Shown here piece by piece: positions 2,684 to 18,240 of a stretch of 29,205 bases of DNA. The first letter of the stretch is position 1; every line of letters starts with the position of its first letter. Both the position numbers and the translations under genes were made by a program. This stretch comes from a virus. The notes below the pieces were generated by a model. That model saw only the letters and a program-made list of their open reading frames with translations. It had not been told where the DNA came from and did no database searches. The stretch spans positions 1 to 29,205 of the IMG/VR virus record IMGVR_UViG_3300039412_000167. One strand, 5' to 3'.

Positions 2684-2701
2684 GGCGATCCGAAGATCGC
2701 C
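2684..2701 (-). promoter_or_regulatory. Perfect hairpin upstream of the Cys-cluster gene
   Basis: GGCGATC and GATCGCC form a perfect 7-bp stem around a CGAA tetraloop, the minus-strand loop being TTCG, an unusually stable RNA tetraloop. It sits 20 bases upstream of the minus-strand start at 2663, just ahead of that gene's ribosome binding site, and directly abuts the pentamer array. There is no T-run, so it is more likely an mRNA processing or stabilising hairpin than a terminator. Confidence 0.6.
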
Positions 2702-2845
2702 ACCCCGACCATGCCGTACCGTGCCCAACCGGACCCCGCCTGACCAAGCCTTACCCCTGCTCGCCCGACCTGACCGCACCCCGCCAGACCACGCCACACC
2801 ACACCCCGCCATGGCTTGCCATGCCGGACCATGCCCCGCCAAGCC
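2701..2845 (-). repeat. Pentamer array, 29 units of GGYNN on the minus strand
   Basis: Read on the plus strand in steps of five from 2701, 27 of 29 units have a purine at position 3 and 27 of 29 end in CC (consensus NNRCC; exceptions include CCTGC and ATGGC). On the minus strand, which is the coding strand of both neighbours, this is GGYNN repeated. The array fills the whole gap between the stop codon of the RAMP-like gene (2845-2847) and the hairpin at 2684. The other positions are nearly free, so the conserved feature is the GG spacing, not a unit sequence. Frames through it are largely free of stops as a by-product, giving spurious Gly-rich ORFs. GG every five bases fits a two-tetrad G-quadruplex pattern with 3-base loops. 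Confidence 0.95.
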
Positions 2846-3465
2846 TATTTTAATTCAATGACCTTGAATCCGGTTATCTGGAATCTACCGAACGAAGGCC
2901 GGAAATCCCCAACACCGACGATCCTTCCTGCGTACTGAAGGGTGTCGTTCATCAGTTGCGGGTTGATGTATTCGGGGAGAAGAATTTGGAAACTCACGCT
3001 ACACTTCCAGCCCGCCGCCATTGCTGGCCTAACGCGGGTGATTCCGTTCCGCTGCACAACCACTCTGCGCCGATCCATGTAGTCGGGTTCTTTGACGCCG
3101 AAGGAACACAGTTCGCCCAGAGTCGCAATTCCGGCTTTGAAGAGGTCCATCGCGCTTTTTCTTGGACTGCGCGGGTCCTGCTTAAATTTAGCTGCGGAAA
3201 TGACCGATTGCCGGAAATACTCGGATGGAATCGCAATAAGGCCCTTTTCATCTCTGTAGAGAAAGGACTCTGTGTTGTCGCTCTTCTTCGCCGCTGATCC
3301 CTTGGCTGCTTTTGATTTTTCCTCAATTGCCTCACAAGACCAACGATGGAAGAGCATCGGCGCTGCGCCCTCAATCTGACACTCAACCATGTACGGCGTT
3401 TGAATTTCGATGTCCAGTTTCGCGTCATTCGACACATTGCTCAGAGCAGTCACTTCCGTGGCCAT
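2845..3465 (-). CDS. Conserved-looking phage protein with RAMP-like motifs
   Basis: This 206-residue protein starts at an ATG with AGGAAG 4 to 9 bases upstream. Three elements stand out: an opening strand ending in EGAAPMLFHRWS (residues 32-43), IPSEYFRQSVISAAKF around 79-94, and GVGDFRPSFGRFQITGF near the C-terminus (about 184-200). The order (substrate-like strand, a P-S-x-x-[FL]-[RK] helix start, a late Gly-rich loop before a strand) recalls the RAMP fold of Cas7-type proteins, but similarity is by eye only and the true identity is unknown. It sits between a zinc-ribbon gene and the pentamer array, with the Cys-cluster gene beyond. A single-strand annealing protein paired with an exonuclease is the main alternative reading. 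Confidence 0.6.
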   Translation of the reverse strand: MATEVTALSNVSNDAKLDIEIQTPYMVECQIEGAAPMLFHRWSCEAIEEKSKAAKGSAAKKSDNTESFLYRDEKGLIAIPSEYFRQSVISAAKFKQDPRSPRKSAMDLFKAGIATLGELCSFGVKEPDYMDRRRVVVQRNGITRVRPAMAAGWKCSVSFQILLPEYINPQLMNDTLQYAGRIVGVGDFRPSFGRFQITGFKVIELK

Positions 3466-3489: not shown

Positions 3490-3633
3490 TTAGCGGGGAG
3501 GCTTAGGTTCTCTGTCCCAGTAGGGGCTTTTGCACTTGGCGCAGCATATCGGCTTTTTGCCGTCTTTGCTTGTCCATTCGTGCTTGCAGCGGCTACAGAC
3601 CCAGATCGTCTTTTTCTCGGTTCGCTGTGGCAT
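3490..3633 (-). CDS. Small zinc-ribbon protein (47 residues)
   Basis: The frame from ATG 3633 to TAA encodes a basic 47-residue protein with two CxxC knuckles, C13-x2-C16 (WVCSRCKHEW) and C31-x2-C34 (CAKCKSPYWD), the classic zinc-ribbon layout. The tail is proline-rich and basic (REPKPPR). The ribosome binding site is weak (ACGAG). Small zinc ribbons ending in C-K-S-P-Y-W-D are common in phages and prokaryotes, with nucleic-acid binding as the usual assumption. It lies 24 bases upstream of the RAMP-like gene on the same strand, so it is probably in the same transcript. Confidence 0.75.
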   Translation of the reverse strand: MPQRTEKKTIWVCSRCKHEWTSKDGKKPICCAKCKSPYWDREPKPPR

Positions 3634-3676
3634 ACTCGTAGTCTATACCAATGGTTACGAATGTCAAGTAAACCCT

Positions 3677-4446: not shown

Positions 4447-4718
4447 GCCTCACCGTCGCACTCTGTATTCGGCTCCTGATTCTTTTCCTCATCGCCCTCA
4501 GGCTCCGCGTTCTCGTCCTCTTCCTCTGGTTCCTGATCGCTCTTTTCGCGTTCGTCATTTATCGCTTCCGCGACTTCTTCGGCTGGGTAGTCCAAAACCA
4601 TTCCTTCCGTTGCCGCCTGCCCGGTAACCCAAAGTGAGCAGGATTTGTCGTCGATCTTCTTGATGGCCGTCACCGACCAAATATCCAACCATAAATCGTC
4701 GAGAATTTGAATCAGCAT
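4431..4718 (-). CDS. Small protein with very acidic C-terminus
   Basis: This 95-residue protein starts at an ATG four bases after the stop of the large ejection-type gene. The first half (IQILDDLWLDIWSVTAIKK) looks like a small beta domain with conserved hydrophobics; the second half is strongly acidic (EPEEEDENAEPEGDEEKNQ). No clear ribosome binding site is present, so translation is probably coupled to the upstream gene. Function is unknown; acidic tails of this type are seen in DNA-mimic or packaging-related phage proteins, but nothing specific supports that here. Confidence 0.65.
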   Translation of the reverse strand: MLIQILDDLWLDIWSVTAIKKIDDKSCSLWVTGQAATEGMVLDYPAEEVAEAINDEREKSDQEPEEEDENAEPEGDEEKNQEPNTECDGEAWYRK

Positions 4719-4722
4719 GGGA

Positions 4723-7629
4723 TTATGCTACCACTGGTTGGCGCAGCTTTTCAGCTTCCGCAATAATTCTTCTCAGATTGTCCAACGGGATCGCAGCCTC
4801 CGGTCCGGGCGGCGCTGGAGGAGGCGGAGCGGGAGCCTGTGGGGGAGCAGGAGCCGGTTGAGTCGGCTGCGAGGCACCTTGTAGTTCCTGTGCTCGTTTC
4901 TTAATTTCGTCCATCGTCACCTGCCGCGATGCTCCTGCGCCCAAGAGAAATCTTGCAACAGTCGGGTCAAGAGAGCTTGGCAGAGTAGCCACCTTACGTG
5001 ACAATTCATCGGAGGCCATGACGACGAGAGCTTGACGTAAGCGTGCTGCATCTTCAGGAGGCAGCGAGTCGATCAACTTGATTTGCTCGGCTCCCGGCTT
5101 GGCGAGCCATTCAACAACACTCGGCCTACGCAGTGCGTCCGTCAGAATTGAAACGGCTGTCTGGCCGATCAGCATCGTGCTACCAAACGCAGCTACCGAA
5201 CCCCCCAAGACGTGCAACGCTGTGCCGCCGATGAGCATCCTCAATACCCACGGTCCAACCGCTCCATAATCGCGCAGTTTGCGATAGATAAACTTTTGCG
5301 TCTCAGGGAGAAGTTTCGTTCCGTCTGGATAGGAAAGTTCCGGGGGTCTGTCTGGACCAAGATCGCGCTCTGGCTCCTTTACGCTTTCACGTGCCTGTGC
5401 CTCTGCATTCACGGGAGTAGGAAGTTCCTTCAACCTAAAAGCTGGCCCCCTCAGATCGTTTACTGTGGGCGGAGCAGGAATTTCCTGACGCTTCTTTTCA
5501 AGAGCCTCTGGAGTCGGCATTTTGTCTAGCCGCTCGCGCTCGGCTCGAATGCGACGATGCTCAGCGGCTAATTGAGGATTACGGGCCTCTATTGCTTGCA
5601 GATGGCTTTCATCCTCTTGCTGCTTAATGTAATCGGGATTGGTCCGCTTTTCTGTTTCCGAAAGCGTCGTTTTTGGATCATTGAATTCACGGCCAAAAGC
5701 TTCATTGTATTCAACCGTTTCGTTTCTGGCGTCCAACCATTCATTGAACGCGCCTGCGGCCTTCGACCACTGAGCCTCCTGATCTTCAAAAGCGTCGGCA
5801 AGTTGATCTGCCTCTCCAGCCTCCGGTCCTCTATTGGCACGACGCAACTCTATGGAATGACGGCGTAGTACGGATTTTGCGCGATGGAGTTCATCGAGTG
5901 TTACCGTACCGCCACTTTGCAGATTCAGCGAGATACTCGGCGGCTGAATGCCAAGACGCTTCATTTCCGCATCCACGAAATCTTTCTGAATGGGGTTTAA
6001 GACGCCGTAATCGTACACGCCCGGACCATTGGATGGAAGGTTCATCTTGTCAATGATCGCTTGCCGCGCCAACGTGTAGGCAGAAATTCCTGAAAGCGAG
6101 CTTGGGTCTTCTTTCACTTGTGCCAGAAGCCTTTTCACTTCGGCTGCGGTAGACCCCCACTTTTCAATTGCTTGAATCAACACATCGGCAGGTCCGCGAA
6201 ACTGACCCGCCTTCGTTCTCCACGCTGCCCATGCGGTATTTTCTGATTTCTTCTTATCTATACGCTCTTGTTCATCCGCATCAAACAGTTTCTGCGTATC
6301 GTCAGCGATCTGCTTTTCAAGAGTTTGGCGCTCCTGTAGCTGCCGGTCAATGTCAGCGTTGGCCTCTTGCGCCTTTTTTACGGTGTCTTGGTACTTGGCG
6401 GTTACGCGCTGATTAAAGTTATTCGTAGCTTCCGTAGCCTTGCGGTGCTTTTCCTCAAGTTCAGTTTTCTTGCTTCCTACTTCCTGCTCATGCGCCAATT
6501 CATTGCCGCGTGTTGCATGTGCAGCTTCGGCGCTCTTCTCAAGATGCTTTTGTGTCGCATCCTCCTCTTTCTTTCTTACGTCCTCAGATTCTTTGGCAAA
6601 TTTGTCAATCAATCCTTCTTGCTCAGACCCCACCTTCAAGCTGTTCCGCATCGTTTCGCGTGCGCCTTCAGGAAGATGCTCAAGACCCTTGGCCAAAAGC
6701 GCTCCAGCAGGAGCTTTTAGGTGCGGAGCAACATAGAGGATTGCATTTCCTGCAAAGGTTCCTGCGGCTCCGCGCGGGTTTCCTTCGCCTAACTGCTCAC
6801 TGATTTTTTCTCCCGCTTGTGCTGCCCAAGGCCCCACGCCGGGTACGACAGCAGCTAATCCGTGGGCAAGAGAAAGCTCTCTATGTTTTTGTGCATCGCT
6901 ACCAGGTTTTGGCTTTTCCGTCCAAGGAATTCCTGCCGCTTGAAACTCTTCTTTTGCTTTTTGCGCCTCACTTATCTGTGCTTCGGCCAACCTTTCTAGC
7001 AGGTACATGCCCGGAATCGCGTTATCGTAGATATACCCAAGCGTTCCAGATTTTTCGCTGCGCTCTTTCTCTTCGGGCGTTGCTCTTGGGTCAAGAAACT
7101 TTCCAAATCCTTTGATTCCTTGTTTGAGCGCTTCGCCTGTTGCACTCCAGAATCCTTCCTGTGGAGGTGTTTCCGGGCCGTATATTGGCTCGCCTGCGGA
7201 ATTCCTTCCGAAGACTGCGACTCCGGGAGTTGGCGATAGCTTCTTCAGGTTCGGATCGGCGGCAGCGTTCTTGACGTAGGTAATCCTGTCGGCTGGCGTC
7301 ATGACAAAGCCGAGTTTAGCGGCGCTCCGTACAAGGCTGTACGGAACTGGAACAGTGCCGCTTGGACCTTCCATTTTGAAGGTTCCTTCGCCAGTGTGGA
7401 TTGTCAGATCGGATGGGTTCGCGATGTAGCCGTCAACGTCCAGAAACTCCTTTACGCGCTTTTGCGGCACCCAATGCTGCTTCCCGCTCGGCGCATTAAA
7501 CAAGATGGCGCGTTGACCGCGAGCGCCAAGATATTTGTCAACCTGCGAGGAAGGAACATCATAGAGCGTTTTGGCATCGGGACCAAAAAGCGGTATCGTC
7601 TGTCCGTTTTGATCATTTTGCCCCGCCAT
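4723..7629 (-). CDS. Large internal virion / DNA-ejection-type protein
   Basis: A 968-residue protein starting at an ATG that overlaps the upstream stop (TAATG), with GGGAGC 6 bases upstream. The first ~80 residues have the pattern ...PSGKQHWVPQKRVKEFLD, a short repeat-like module (N-x-P-x-G-x-x-x-x-V-P-x-x-x-V) seen at the N-termini of phage structural proteins. From roughly 340 to 470 it is long charged coiled coil. A hydrophobic Gly-rich stretch at about 790-830 (RMLIGGTALHVLGGSVAAFG) could be membrane-inserting. The C-terminus is Pro/Ala-rich. Size, order and composition resemble internal core proteins that form a conduit during DNA ejection; no lytic domain is visible. Assignment is from architecture, not homology. 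Confidence 0.7.
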   Translation of the reverse strand: MAGQNDQNGQTIPLFGPDAKTLYDVPSSQVDKYLGARGQRAILFNAPSGKQHWVPQKRVKEFLDVDGYIANPSDLTIHTGEGTFKMEGPSGTVPVPYSLVRSAAKLGFVMTPADRITYVKNAAADPNLKKLSPTPGVAVFGRNSAGEPIYGPETPPQEGFWSATGEALKQGIKGFGKFLDPRATPEEKERSEKSGTLGYIYDNAIPGMYLLERLAEAQISEAQKAKEEFQAAGIPWTEKPKPGSDAQKHRELSLAHGLAAVVPGVGPWAAQAGEKISEQLGEGNPRGAAGTFAGNAILYVAPHLKAPAGALLAKGLEHLPEGARETMRNSLKVGSEQEGLIDKFAKESEDVRKKEEDATQKHLEKSAEAAHATRGNELAHEQEVGSKKTELEEKHRKATEATNNFNQRVTAKYQDTVKKAQEANADIDRQLQERQTLEKQIADDTQKLFDADEQERIDKKKSENTAWAAWRTKAGQFRGPADVLIQAIEKWGSTAAEVKRLLAQVKEDPSSLSGISAYTLARQAIIDKMNLPSNGPGVYDYGVLNPIQKDFVDAEMKRLGIQPPSISLNLQSGGTVTLDELHRAKSVLRRHSIELRRANRGPEAGEADQLADAFEDQEAQWSKAAGAFNEWLDARNETVEYNEAFGREFNDPKTTLSETEKRTNPDYIKQQEDESHLQAIEARNPQLAAEHRRIRAERERLDKMPTPEALEKKRQEIPAPPTVNDLRGPAFRLKELPTPVNAEAQARESVKEPERDLGPDRPPELSYPDGTKLLPETQKFIYRKLRDYGAVGPWVLRMLIGGTALHVLGGSVAAFGSTMLIGQTAVSILTDALRRPSVVEWLAKPGAEQIKLIDSLPPEDAARLRQALVVMASDELSRKVATLPSSLDPTVARFLLGAGASRQVTMDEIKKRAQELQGASQPTQPAPAPPQAPAPPPPAPPGPEAAIPLDNLRRIIAEAEKLRQPVVA

Positions 7630-16571: not shown

Positions 16572-17053
16572 TGAATCGTACCTACATCCCCTGGACTTAC
16601 TAGGATCGTCGTTGCGGACAAGGCCACGCCAATACGCTGGATGTAGTGCGTGCTGGTCGAAGGCGCTGTCTGAGTCATGGTTCCCGTCACGGAATCCGAA
16701 ACGTATACCGTGCCGCCCACTGTCCACGTCCACGAGCCGTCCGTCACCGTGCCGCCCGCCGTGACGCACTGGCTCGTAGTGGAAGCTATGCATAGCGCAG
16801 GATTGTTCACGAGGTTAATGCTCGAATCGGCTAGAGCCGTGGCAAGCGATCCCCCGGCTGGCATGTAGTAAACATCGTAAGCCGTGAGCGTACCATAGCC
16901 GGAAATCAGCGTAACGCCGAGATTCGCCTTTGCCGCCGCTGCTGTAGACGCACCCGTGCCCCCGTTCGCAACCGGCAAGGTTTCCGCCCACGCCATGCTC
17001 GCTGCCAAGAGCAAGAGAGCTAAATCTCGAACGATGCTCCCAATACGCGCCAT
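16568..17053 (-). CDS. Exported short tail-fibre-like protein
   Basis: A 161-residue protein from ATG 17053, overlapping the collagen-like gene by 34 bases; GGGATGG lies about 9 bases upstream. It opens with a signal peptide ([15 protein letters not shown]) and then [21 protein letters not shown], the standard phage tail-fibre motif (NGGTG followed by an Ala-rich N-L-G turn). The C-terminal half has repeated beta segments ([17 protein letters not shown]). It looks like a tail-fibre module that has gained an export signal. The 34-base overlap means its first residues share DNA with the end of the collagen-like fibre in another frame. Confidence 0.75.
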
Positions 17054-18240
17054 AGTGAACCATCCCAATAAAACATAGACGCTTGCCACTGTGAAAGATT
17101 CCACACGCTTTCATTGTCGATGTTGCCGCTCGAACCCTGTACCCCGCAAGCTCCCGCCCCCACGCTCTTAACCCAGAGATAGGACGCTGTTGCGAACGAA
17201 ACCGGAAGAGTGACATACTGCGCAGAAGAAAAGTTTGCCTGAATGACCTTGCCTATGTCTGCGGTACCTGCCGTGTAGCTCGCCGACTGGGCGTTGATCC
17301 CTAAGAGGAAGGCGTTGCCTGTTGTACCCTGTGTACCTTGAGTTCCGGTAGTTCCCTGACTCCCAGTTGTCCCTGTCGTTCCTTGAGAGCCAGTCGTACC
17401 CGTGGTTCCCTGAGAACCCGTGGTCCCGGTGGTCCCCTGTGCGCCTGTCGATCCTGTCGTTCCCTGGCTGCCTGTTGTACCTGCTGTTCCTTGAGCACCA
17501 GCCGTGCCTGCAGTTCCTTGTGTCCCTGTGGTTCCAGTAGTTCCTTGAGAGCCAGTACCCGTTGTGCCTTGGGCACCAGTAGTCCCCTGCGTGCCGCTGC
17601 CCGTCGTACCCTGTGAGCCAGTTGTTCCTTGCGAACCCGTGCCGGTCGTCCCTTGAATCCCCTGAGTGCCTTGGGTTCCAGTTCCCGTCGTTCCTTGGCT
17701 GCCTGTAGTACCTTGCGAACCAGCGGTTCCAGCCGTCCCCTGAGAACCGGCTGTACCGGCAGTCCCTTGTGATCCAACGGTCCCAGTTGTCCCCTGAGAA
17801 CCAGTAGCCCCTTGAGTTCCTGTGCCTGTAGTGCCCTGATTGCCTTGGGTACCTTGTGTCCCTTGCACGCCCTGCGTGCCTTGGCTACCGCTGCCCGTGG
17901 TACCCTGCGTTCCTGTCGATCCCTGAGAACCTGTGACGCCGGTTGTTCCTTGAGAACCTGTTGTTCCCTGCGGCCCCGTGGAACCTGTCGTTCCCTGCGT
18001 CCCGGTGCCCGTCGTGCCTTGGGTTCCGGTGCCGCCCTGCACGCCTTGTGTGCCAGTGGCCCCTTGCATCCCGGCCCCAGTCGTGCCTTGCGTGCCAGTT
18101 GGCCCCTGAGTCCCAGTTGGTCCCTGAGAACCAGTCGTGCCTTGCATACCCGCACCAGTGGTTCCCTGGAGTCCCTGCACACCCGTCGCGCCTTGCGGCC
18201 CTACGGCTACGCTTGCACCGGGATAGGCTTCTACCGACAT
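17020..18240 (-). CDS. Collagen-like tail fibre protein
   Basis: A 406-residue protein starting at ATG 18240 (TGATG overlap with the upstream stop). Residues 14-308 are about 98 Gly-x-y triplets, mostly G-T-Q, G-T-T and G-S-Q with few prolines; proline-poor triple helices of this kind are common in phage fibres. The last 98 residues form a globular knob-like domain ([20 protein letters not shown] ... [19 protein letters not shown]) with a V-T-L-P strand and W-x-x-x-G turn, typical of phage fibre tips. It probably trimerises and reaches the host receptor. The DNA of the repeat is low-complexity and may be recombination-prone. Confidence 0.9.

Follow-up and report, generated by a model that had tools for sequence, protein, structure and literature searches.

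A viral GGYNN pentamer array, very probably the vrRNA gene of a VIPR system, with a guide matching homologues of the neighbouring gene

VIPR systems and the locus compared with them

VIPR systems, described in a 2026 preprint (PMC13142463), combine a phage RAMP protein, Vipr, with vrRNAs in which GGY and NN alternate and which end in a structured 3′ tail. These systems recognise double-stranded DNA, with each NN pair being read and one target base skipped; the vrRNAs studied carry 9–16 repeat units each, and some of them are aimed at other VIPRs (PMC13142463). The text of the preprint gives no mechanism for the acquisition of NN pairs (PMC13142463).

The window analysed here, the whole of a 29,205-nt stretch of viral DNA, contains a tract of 29 GGYNN units that is very probably a vrRNA gene of such a system. 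VIPR itself has been known since 2026 (PMC13142463); the present locus adds to it a decoded target family, a long guide, and evidence from a distant clade that independently supports the code.

The closest described system is that of the Escherichia phage SUSP1 (type II, PDB 36pp, PMC13142463). Both loci are phage-borne and pair a single-domain RAMP protein with GGY/NN arrays, which lie on the strand of its gene in the flanking intergenic region, and with a structured 3′ tail; both can be decoded with a skip of one base. The two proteins are, however, only 23% identical (BLASTP E-value 1e-8), and SUSP1 carries four separate vrRNAs, whereas the window has one array of 29 units, 22 consecutive units of which are colinear with one target; the guide, at 22 to 29 units, would exceed the 9–16 units of the preprint. 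The tail is a simple tetraloop hairpin in the window and a pseudoknot in SUSP1. The window also lacks vap1, none of the genes neighbouring the array being assigned to the vap1 family phrog_5926, and has a zinc-ribbon gene in its place. Finally, the predicted target is a homologue of a neighbouring phage gene, whereas that of SUSP1 is a satellite.

Class 1 CRISPR-Cas effectors (Cas7/Csm3, types III and VII) share with the locus the RAMP fold, here in a predicted model (Z about 11–12), and the periodic reading of a guide with skipped bases. Unlike them, the region has a single RAMP gene and no direct repeats with unique spacers, and it is the NN pairs, set within a pentamer scaffold, that carry the guide information.

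Architecture of the locus

The features surrounding the array are all on the minus strand and are listed from 5′ to 3′ on that strand:

3640–3667, minus: sigma-70-like promoter (TTGACA-16-TAGACT), upstream of the zinc-ribbon gene
3490–3633, minus: zinc-ribbon-like protein of 47 aa, first gene of a putative operon and candidate accessory (vap) gene
2845–3465, minus: vipr gene, encoding a 206-aa single-domain RAMP (Cas7/Csm3-like) protein, directly upstream of the array
2701–2845, minus: tandem-repeat tract of 29 GGYNN units, very probably a vrRNA (unit 1, 2845–2841; unit 29, 2705–2701)
2684–2701, minus: 3′ tail hairpin GGCGAUC-UUCG-GAUCGCC, with compensatory changes in four close relatives
1728–2660, minus: downstream gene of about 310 aa with four invariant cysteines, the phage's own member of the predicted target family

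Read from 2845 to 2701 on the minus strand, the first position of the array is G in all 29 units, the second is G in 27, and the third is a pyrimidine in 27, with the full GGY present in 26/29; the fourth and fifth positions are nearly free, 13 of the 16 dinucleotides occurring there. This recount agrees with the first-pass annotation, made from the sequence alone, which had reported GG and the pyrimidine as each kept in 27 of 29 pentamers and the last two bases as almost free. The imperfect units are 7 (GCCAT), 18 (GCAGG), and 29 (GGGTG). Identity at lag 5, a check that the same annotation had proposed, is 0.54 against 0.35 ± 0.04 in shuffles (shuffle maximum 0.46). Its caveat that shuffled sequence might give equally regular period-5 runs was not borne out either: the best run of 15 units contains 14 GGY units, against at most nine in 1,000 dinucleotide shuffles. 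The array extends, as had also been claimed, from the stop codon to the hairpin: it begins on the final base of the TAG that closes the 206-aa gene and reaches as far as the UUCG-capped hairpin at 2701–2684. There is no second comparable array anywhere in the window. Rfam and tRNA scans of the window gave no match, nor did PADLOC, and Tandem Repeats Finder detected no CRISPR array of direct repeats and spacers near the gene.

The hairpin has a folding energy of −11.3 kcal/mol (z −4.4) and is 100% paired in a small sample of five sequences (the window and its relatives L002, L003, L004, and L061), across which changes on both sides occur in four of its eight pairs. A T-rich, terminator-like sequence follows it in those relatives; in the window, the T-run is weak.

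The neighbouring gene encodes a Vipr protein

From sequence comparison and a predicted structure, the 206-aa protein is a Vipr protein. It matches phrog_4652 at 2e-15, the family to which SUSP1 Vipr belongs at 1.4e-96, and a profile built from it and 53 relatives (54 in all) has one PDB match only, 36pp_D ('SUSP1 Vipr protein'), with an E-value of 3.5e-12. The AlphaFold model (pLDDT 86) comprises a single RAMP domain, for which the closest structures are type VII Cas7 (Z 12.4) and Csm3 (Z 11.8), the best match extending over 164 residues and the two being tied within the margin of the tool.

Arrays in related phages

Relatives of the Vipr protein were taken from IMG/VR, yielding 62 viral contigs. 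Relatives that keep the gene and lack the array had been named in advance as evidence against the element; instead, arrays adjoin vipr in 56 of the 62, which favours a real element. Nearly all arrays of these relatives (139/142) are on the strand of the vipr gene, and their density is about 90 times higher near it (142 in 108 kb) than far from it in the same loci (6 in 419 kb), with none in a control of 619 kb of other viral loci. Arrays are placed upstream of vipr, downstream of it, or on both sides, and the genes following them differ.

The closest relative, L003 (85% identity), matches the window in its zinc-ribbon gene, promoter (TTGACA-16-TATACT at the equivalent place), and gene order up to the array, and the zinc-ribbon-like gene is common to these two loci only. 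The L003 array consists of 24 units with different NN pairs, GGY being kept, and is likewise followed by a hairpin. Long degenerate arrays occur in L002 (5627–6060), L004 (5802–6361), and L061 (5642–5957), with short hairpins between (e.g., GGGCCGAAAGGCC and GGGTCATTATGACC) that are possibly guide separators. L046 (3081–3641) and L048 (4443–5023) have five arrays each, with a near-identical stretch of 50 bases (GGGCCTTATTGCAAGGAATAGGGCGGCTAAGAACCGCC...) between, and are well suited to the modelling of a tail structure.

GG at every fifth base had first been read as a potential chain of two-tetrad G-quadruplexes, and a structural repeat of this or another kind, in the RNA or the template strand, might control the downstream gene, in whose 5′ leader the array lies. 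This, however, would leave unexplained the conserved pyrimidine, the linkage to the RAMP gene in most relatives, and, above all, NN pairs that can be decoded into a homologous gene (see below). RNAfold with quadruplexes allowed, the prediction that had been suggested as a check, returned the same minimum-energy structure, and the placement of arrays on either or both sides of vipr, before different genes, argues against this explanation as well. We give this explanation almost no credence beside a vrRNA gene.

The decoded guide and its target site

The array was decoded by the published rule, reading every NN pair and passing over a single target base after it, giving the guide TTxGGxATxCCxATxAAxATxGGxGTxGTxGTxCTxGGxGCxCAxCGxGAxGGxAAxTTxCAxGGxCCxTGxACxACxATxCGxTGx. 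The guide was first compared with 706 kb of loci that had been collected for other purposes. Its best match there was in L003, where 13/29 units and 37/58 bases agree, only moderately beyond the maximum of 12 units and 35 bases obtained with 100 shuffled guides in the same 706 kb. This match sits in a homologue of the downstream gene, in its reading frame, and the choice of that gene family came from it. The homologues themselves were retrieved through their homology with the neighbouring gene and not by the guide, and the coincidence of guide and site is therefore not circular.

In each of 15 homologues, the best coding-strand site is the identical codon-aligned place. The mean best score is 35.3/58 bases, compared with 26.3 ± 0.4 for 2,000 shuffled unit orders, none of which exceeded 27.9; the corresponding z of 23 overstates the evidence because the homologues descend from a common ancestor and do not count as independent observations. 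Decoding with 0, 2, or 3 bases skipped gave 25.9–26.3 on the same homologues, without signal, and reversed, complemented, and letter-swapped guides likewise gave none. With one base skipped, the NN pairs translate into a peptide belonging to the downstream gene's family, and the skipped base falls on the wobble position of the target codons. One skip rule and one site make a chance origin of this sequence match implausible. The part of the array concerned is as follows:

2721–2830, minus: units 4–25, 22 units that agree in their NN pairs, colinearly over 66 bp, with the homologous target gene

Matches peak at the most conserved residues of the family, namely P, G, G (18/18), M, V, R, K, H, and W, and unit 18, despite its broken scaffold, still matches an invariant glycine. 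Units 1–3 and 26–29 fit the target family poorly; for units 26–29, a compatible residue is present in none of the 18 sequences, and thus, the last four units before the tail seem to lie outside the guide proper.

The top site is that of L075, with 41/58 bases and 15/29 units, and nine distinct others score 36–38/58; these values for L075 are too few for it to be claimed as the actual target. Exact core patterns of 12 or 9 units of the decoded target had no match in the IMG/VR viral collection, 8-unit cores gave 30 and 12 matches there, all at chance level once the whole guide was scored, and tblastn of the decoded peptide against phage records was negative. As no sequence matching the whole guide was found in the viral collection, the array may have decayed or recombined, its guide matching no existing target any more, and the three imperfect units and the poorly fitting ends would suit such a history. 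Against this, 26 of 29 scaffold units are intact and so are the hairpin and the vipr gene, the units that match coincide with the best-conserved codons, and phages of this kind are sparsely represented in the collection. Decay is thus unlikely, although it deserves more weight than the other alternatives.

The downstream protein matched no Pfam, PDB, or PHROGs family, and its predicted structure (pLDDT 40) is too poor for use. One of its invariant cysteines is N-terminal and three are C-terminal, an arrangement that we take to be reminiscent of Cas4/AddB iron-sulfur nucleases. The family was found in viral contigs only, with no homologues in 84,980 genomes of bacteria and archaea or among phage records and plasmids, and its members in L075 and L078 adjoin large genes with domains of the polyvalent-protein type.

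The array lies directly before the phage's own copy of the target family, 31/58 bases of which match the guide, and regulation of this gene rather than a rival's might be envisaged. The own copy is nevertheless matched fully by only 9/29 units and is a worse match than most distant homologues, which is the opposite of what self-regulation would predict and disfavours it; moreover, the L003 homologue of the gene lies 4 kb away from the array. We consider self-regulation very improbable. Since units 4–25 match, units 26–29 do not, and the own copy is a poor match, the guide is probably aimed at a related phage's version of the downstream gene.

When 101 arrays were decoded against the loci with the one-base skip, the only clear outliers were the guide of the window (12.2) and that of L036 (13.4), shuffled guides reaching at most 10.6. 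The L036 array (4852–4941, minus) matches the vipr gene of L004 (5174–5218) in antisense, with 10 of 11 consecutive NN pairs matching and the skips at wobble positions; its guide would appear to be aimed at another VIPR system, consistent with the preprint (PMC13142463). A further L004 array (4607–4661, minus) has a guide matching an ORF of a related phage (L002, 2935–2973) at 22/26 bases, in frame but only slightly beyond shuffles.

Proposed mode of action

We put a probability of roughly 93% on the joint reading that the locus is a phage VIPR vrRNA gene with its Vipr, that the guide is directed against a related phage's homologue of the downstream gene, and that binding would repress that homologue. 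By analogy with the preprint (PMC13142463), the array would be transcribed as a vrRNA, and, as in the homologous SUSP1 system, Vipr subunits would assemble along the GGY scaffold of the transcript, coating it with a RAMP filament. The first-pass suggestion of an RNA element or protein-binding lattice survives in this form, as an RNA scaffold for repeated Vipr subunits, whereas cis-control gives way to a guide for DNA recognition; the evidence fits such a guide RNA instead of a recombination or priming site, which had also been proposed. Each NN pair would read double-stranded DNA and leave out one base, which according to the decoding is the wobble base of a target codon; DNA binding itself is extrapolated from known VIPRs. 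The 3′ hairpin may serve as tail or terminator. The target would be the homologue in a related, probably competing phage, whose expression guide binding would repress if the function reported in the preprint holds here (PMC13142463), and the own copy would be spared through mismatches at 27/58 guide bases.

More tentatively, with the odds somewhat short of even, long guides may be characteristic of this clade: one vrRNA would read 22–25 consecutive NN pairs (about 66–75 bp of coding sequence) in a rival's counterpart of a gene, with the phage's own copy beside the array and its divergence providing self-immunity.

By sequence alone, this locus supports the one-base-skip wobble code of the preprint (PMC13142463) independently and from a distant Vipr clade, and it offers a concrete target prediction. 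It also suggests that guides can exceed the lengths studied so far and that close phage relatives, not just satellites or prophages, can be targets, and the 62 related loci are a resource on how NN pairs are acquired.

Other features of the window

A 12-bp tandem repeat (consensus GTCTCTGGGGTC, about 19 copies) occupies positions 1–242 and runs off the contig start; it is followed by a DUF6745 gene (276–1019). A recombination endonuclease VII gene (PF02945; 10038–11036, plus strand) is on the strand opposite to its neighbours, and the second half of the window encodes a collagen-like G-X-X repeat protein (GTQGTTG...; 17020–18240, minus strand).
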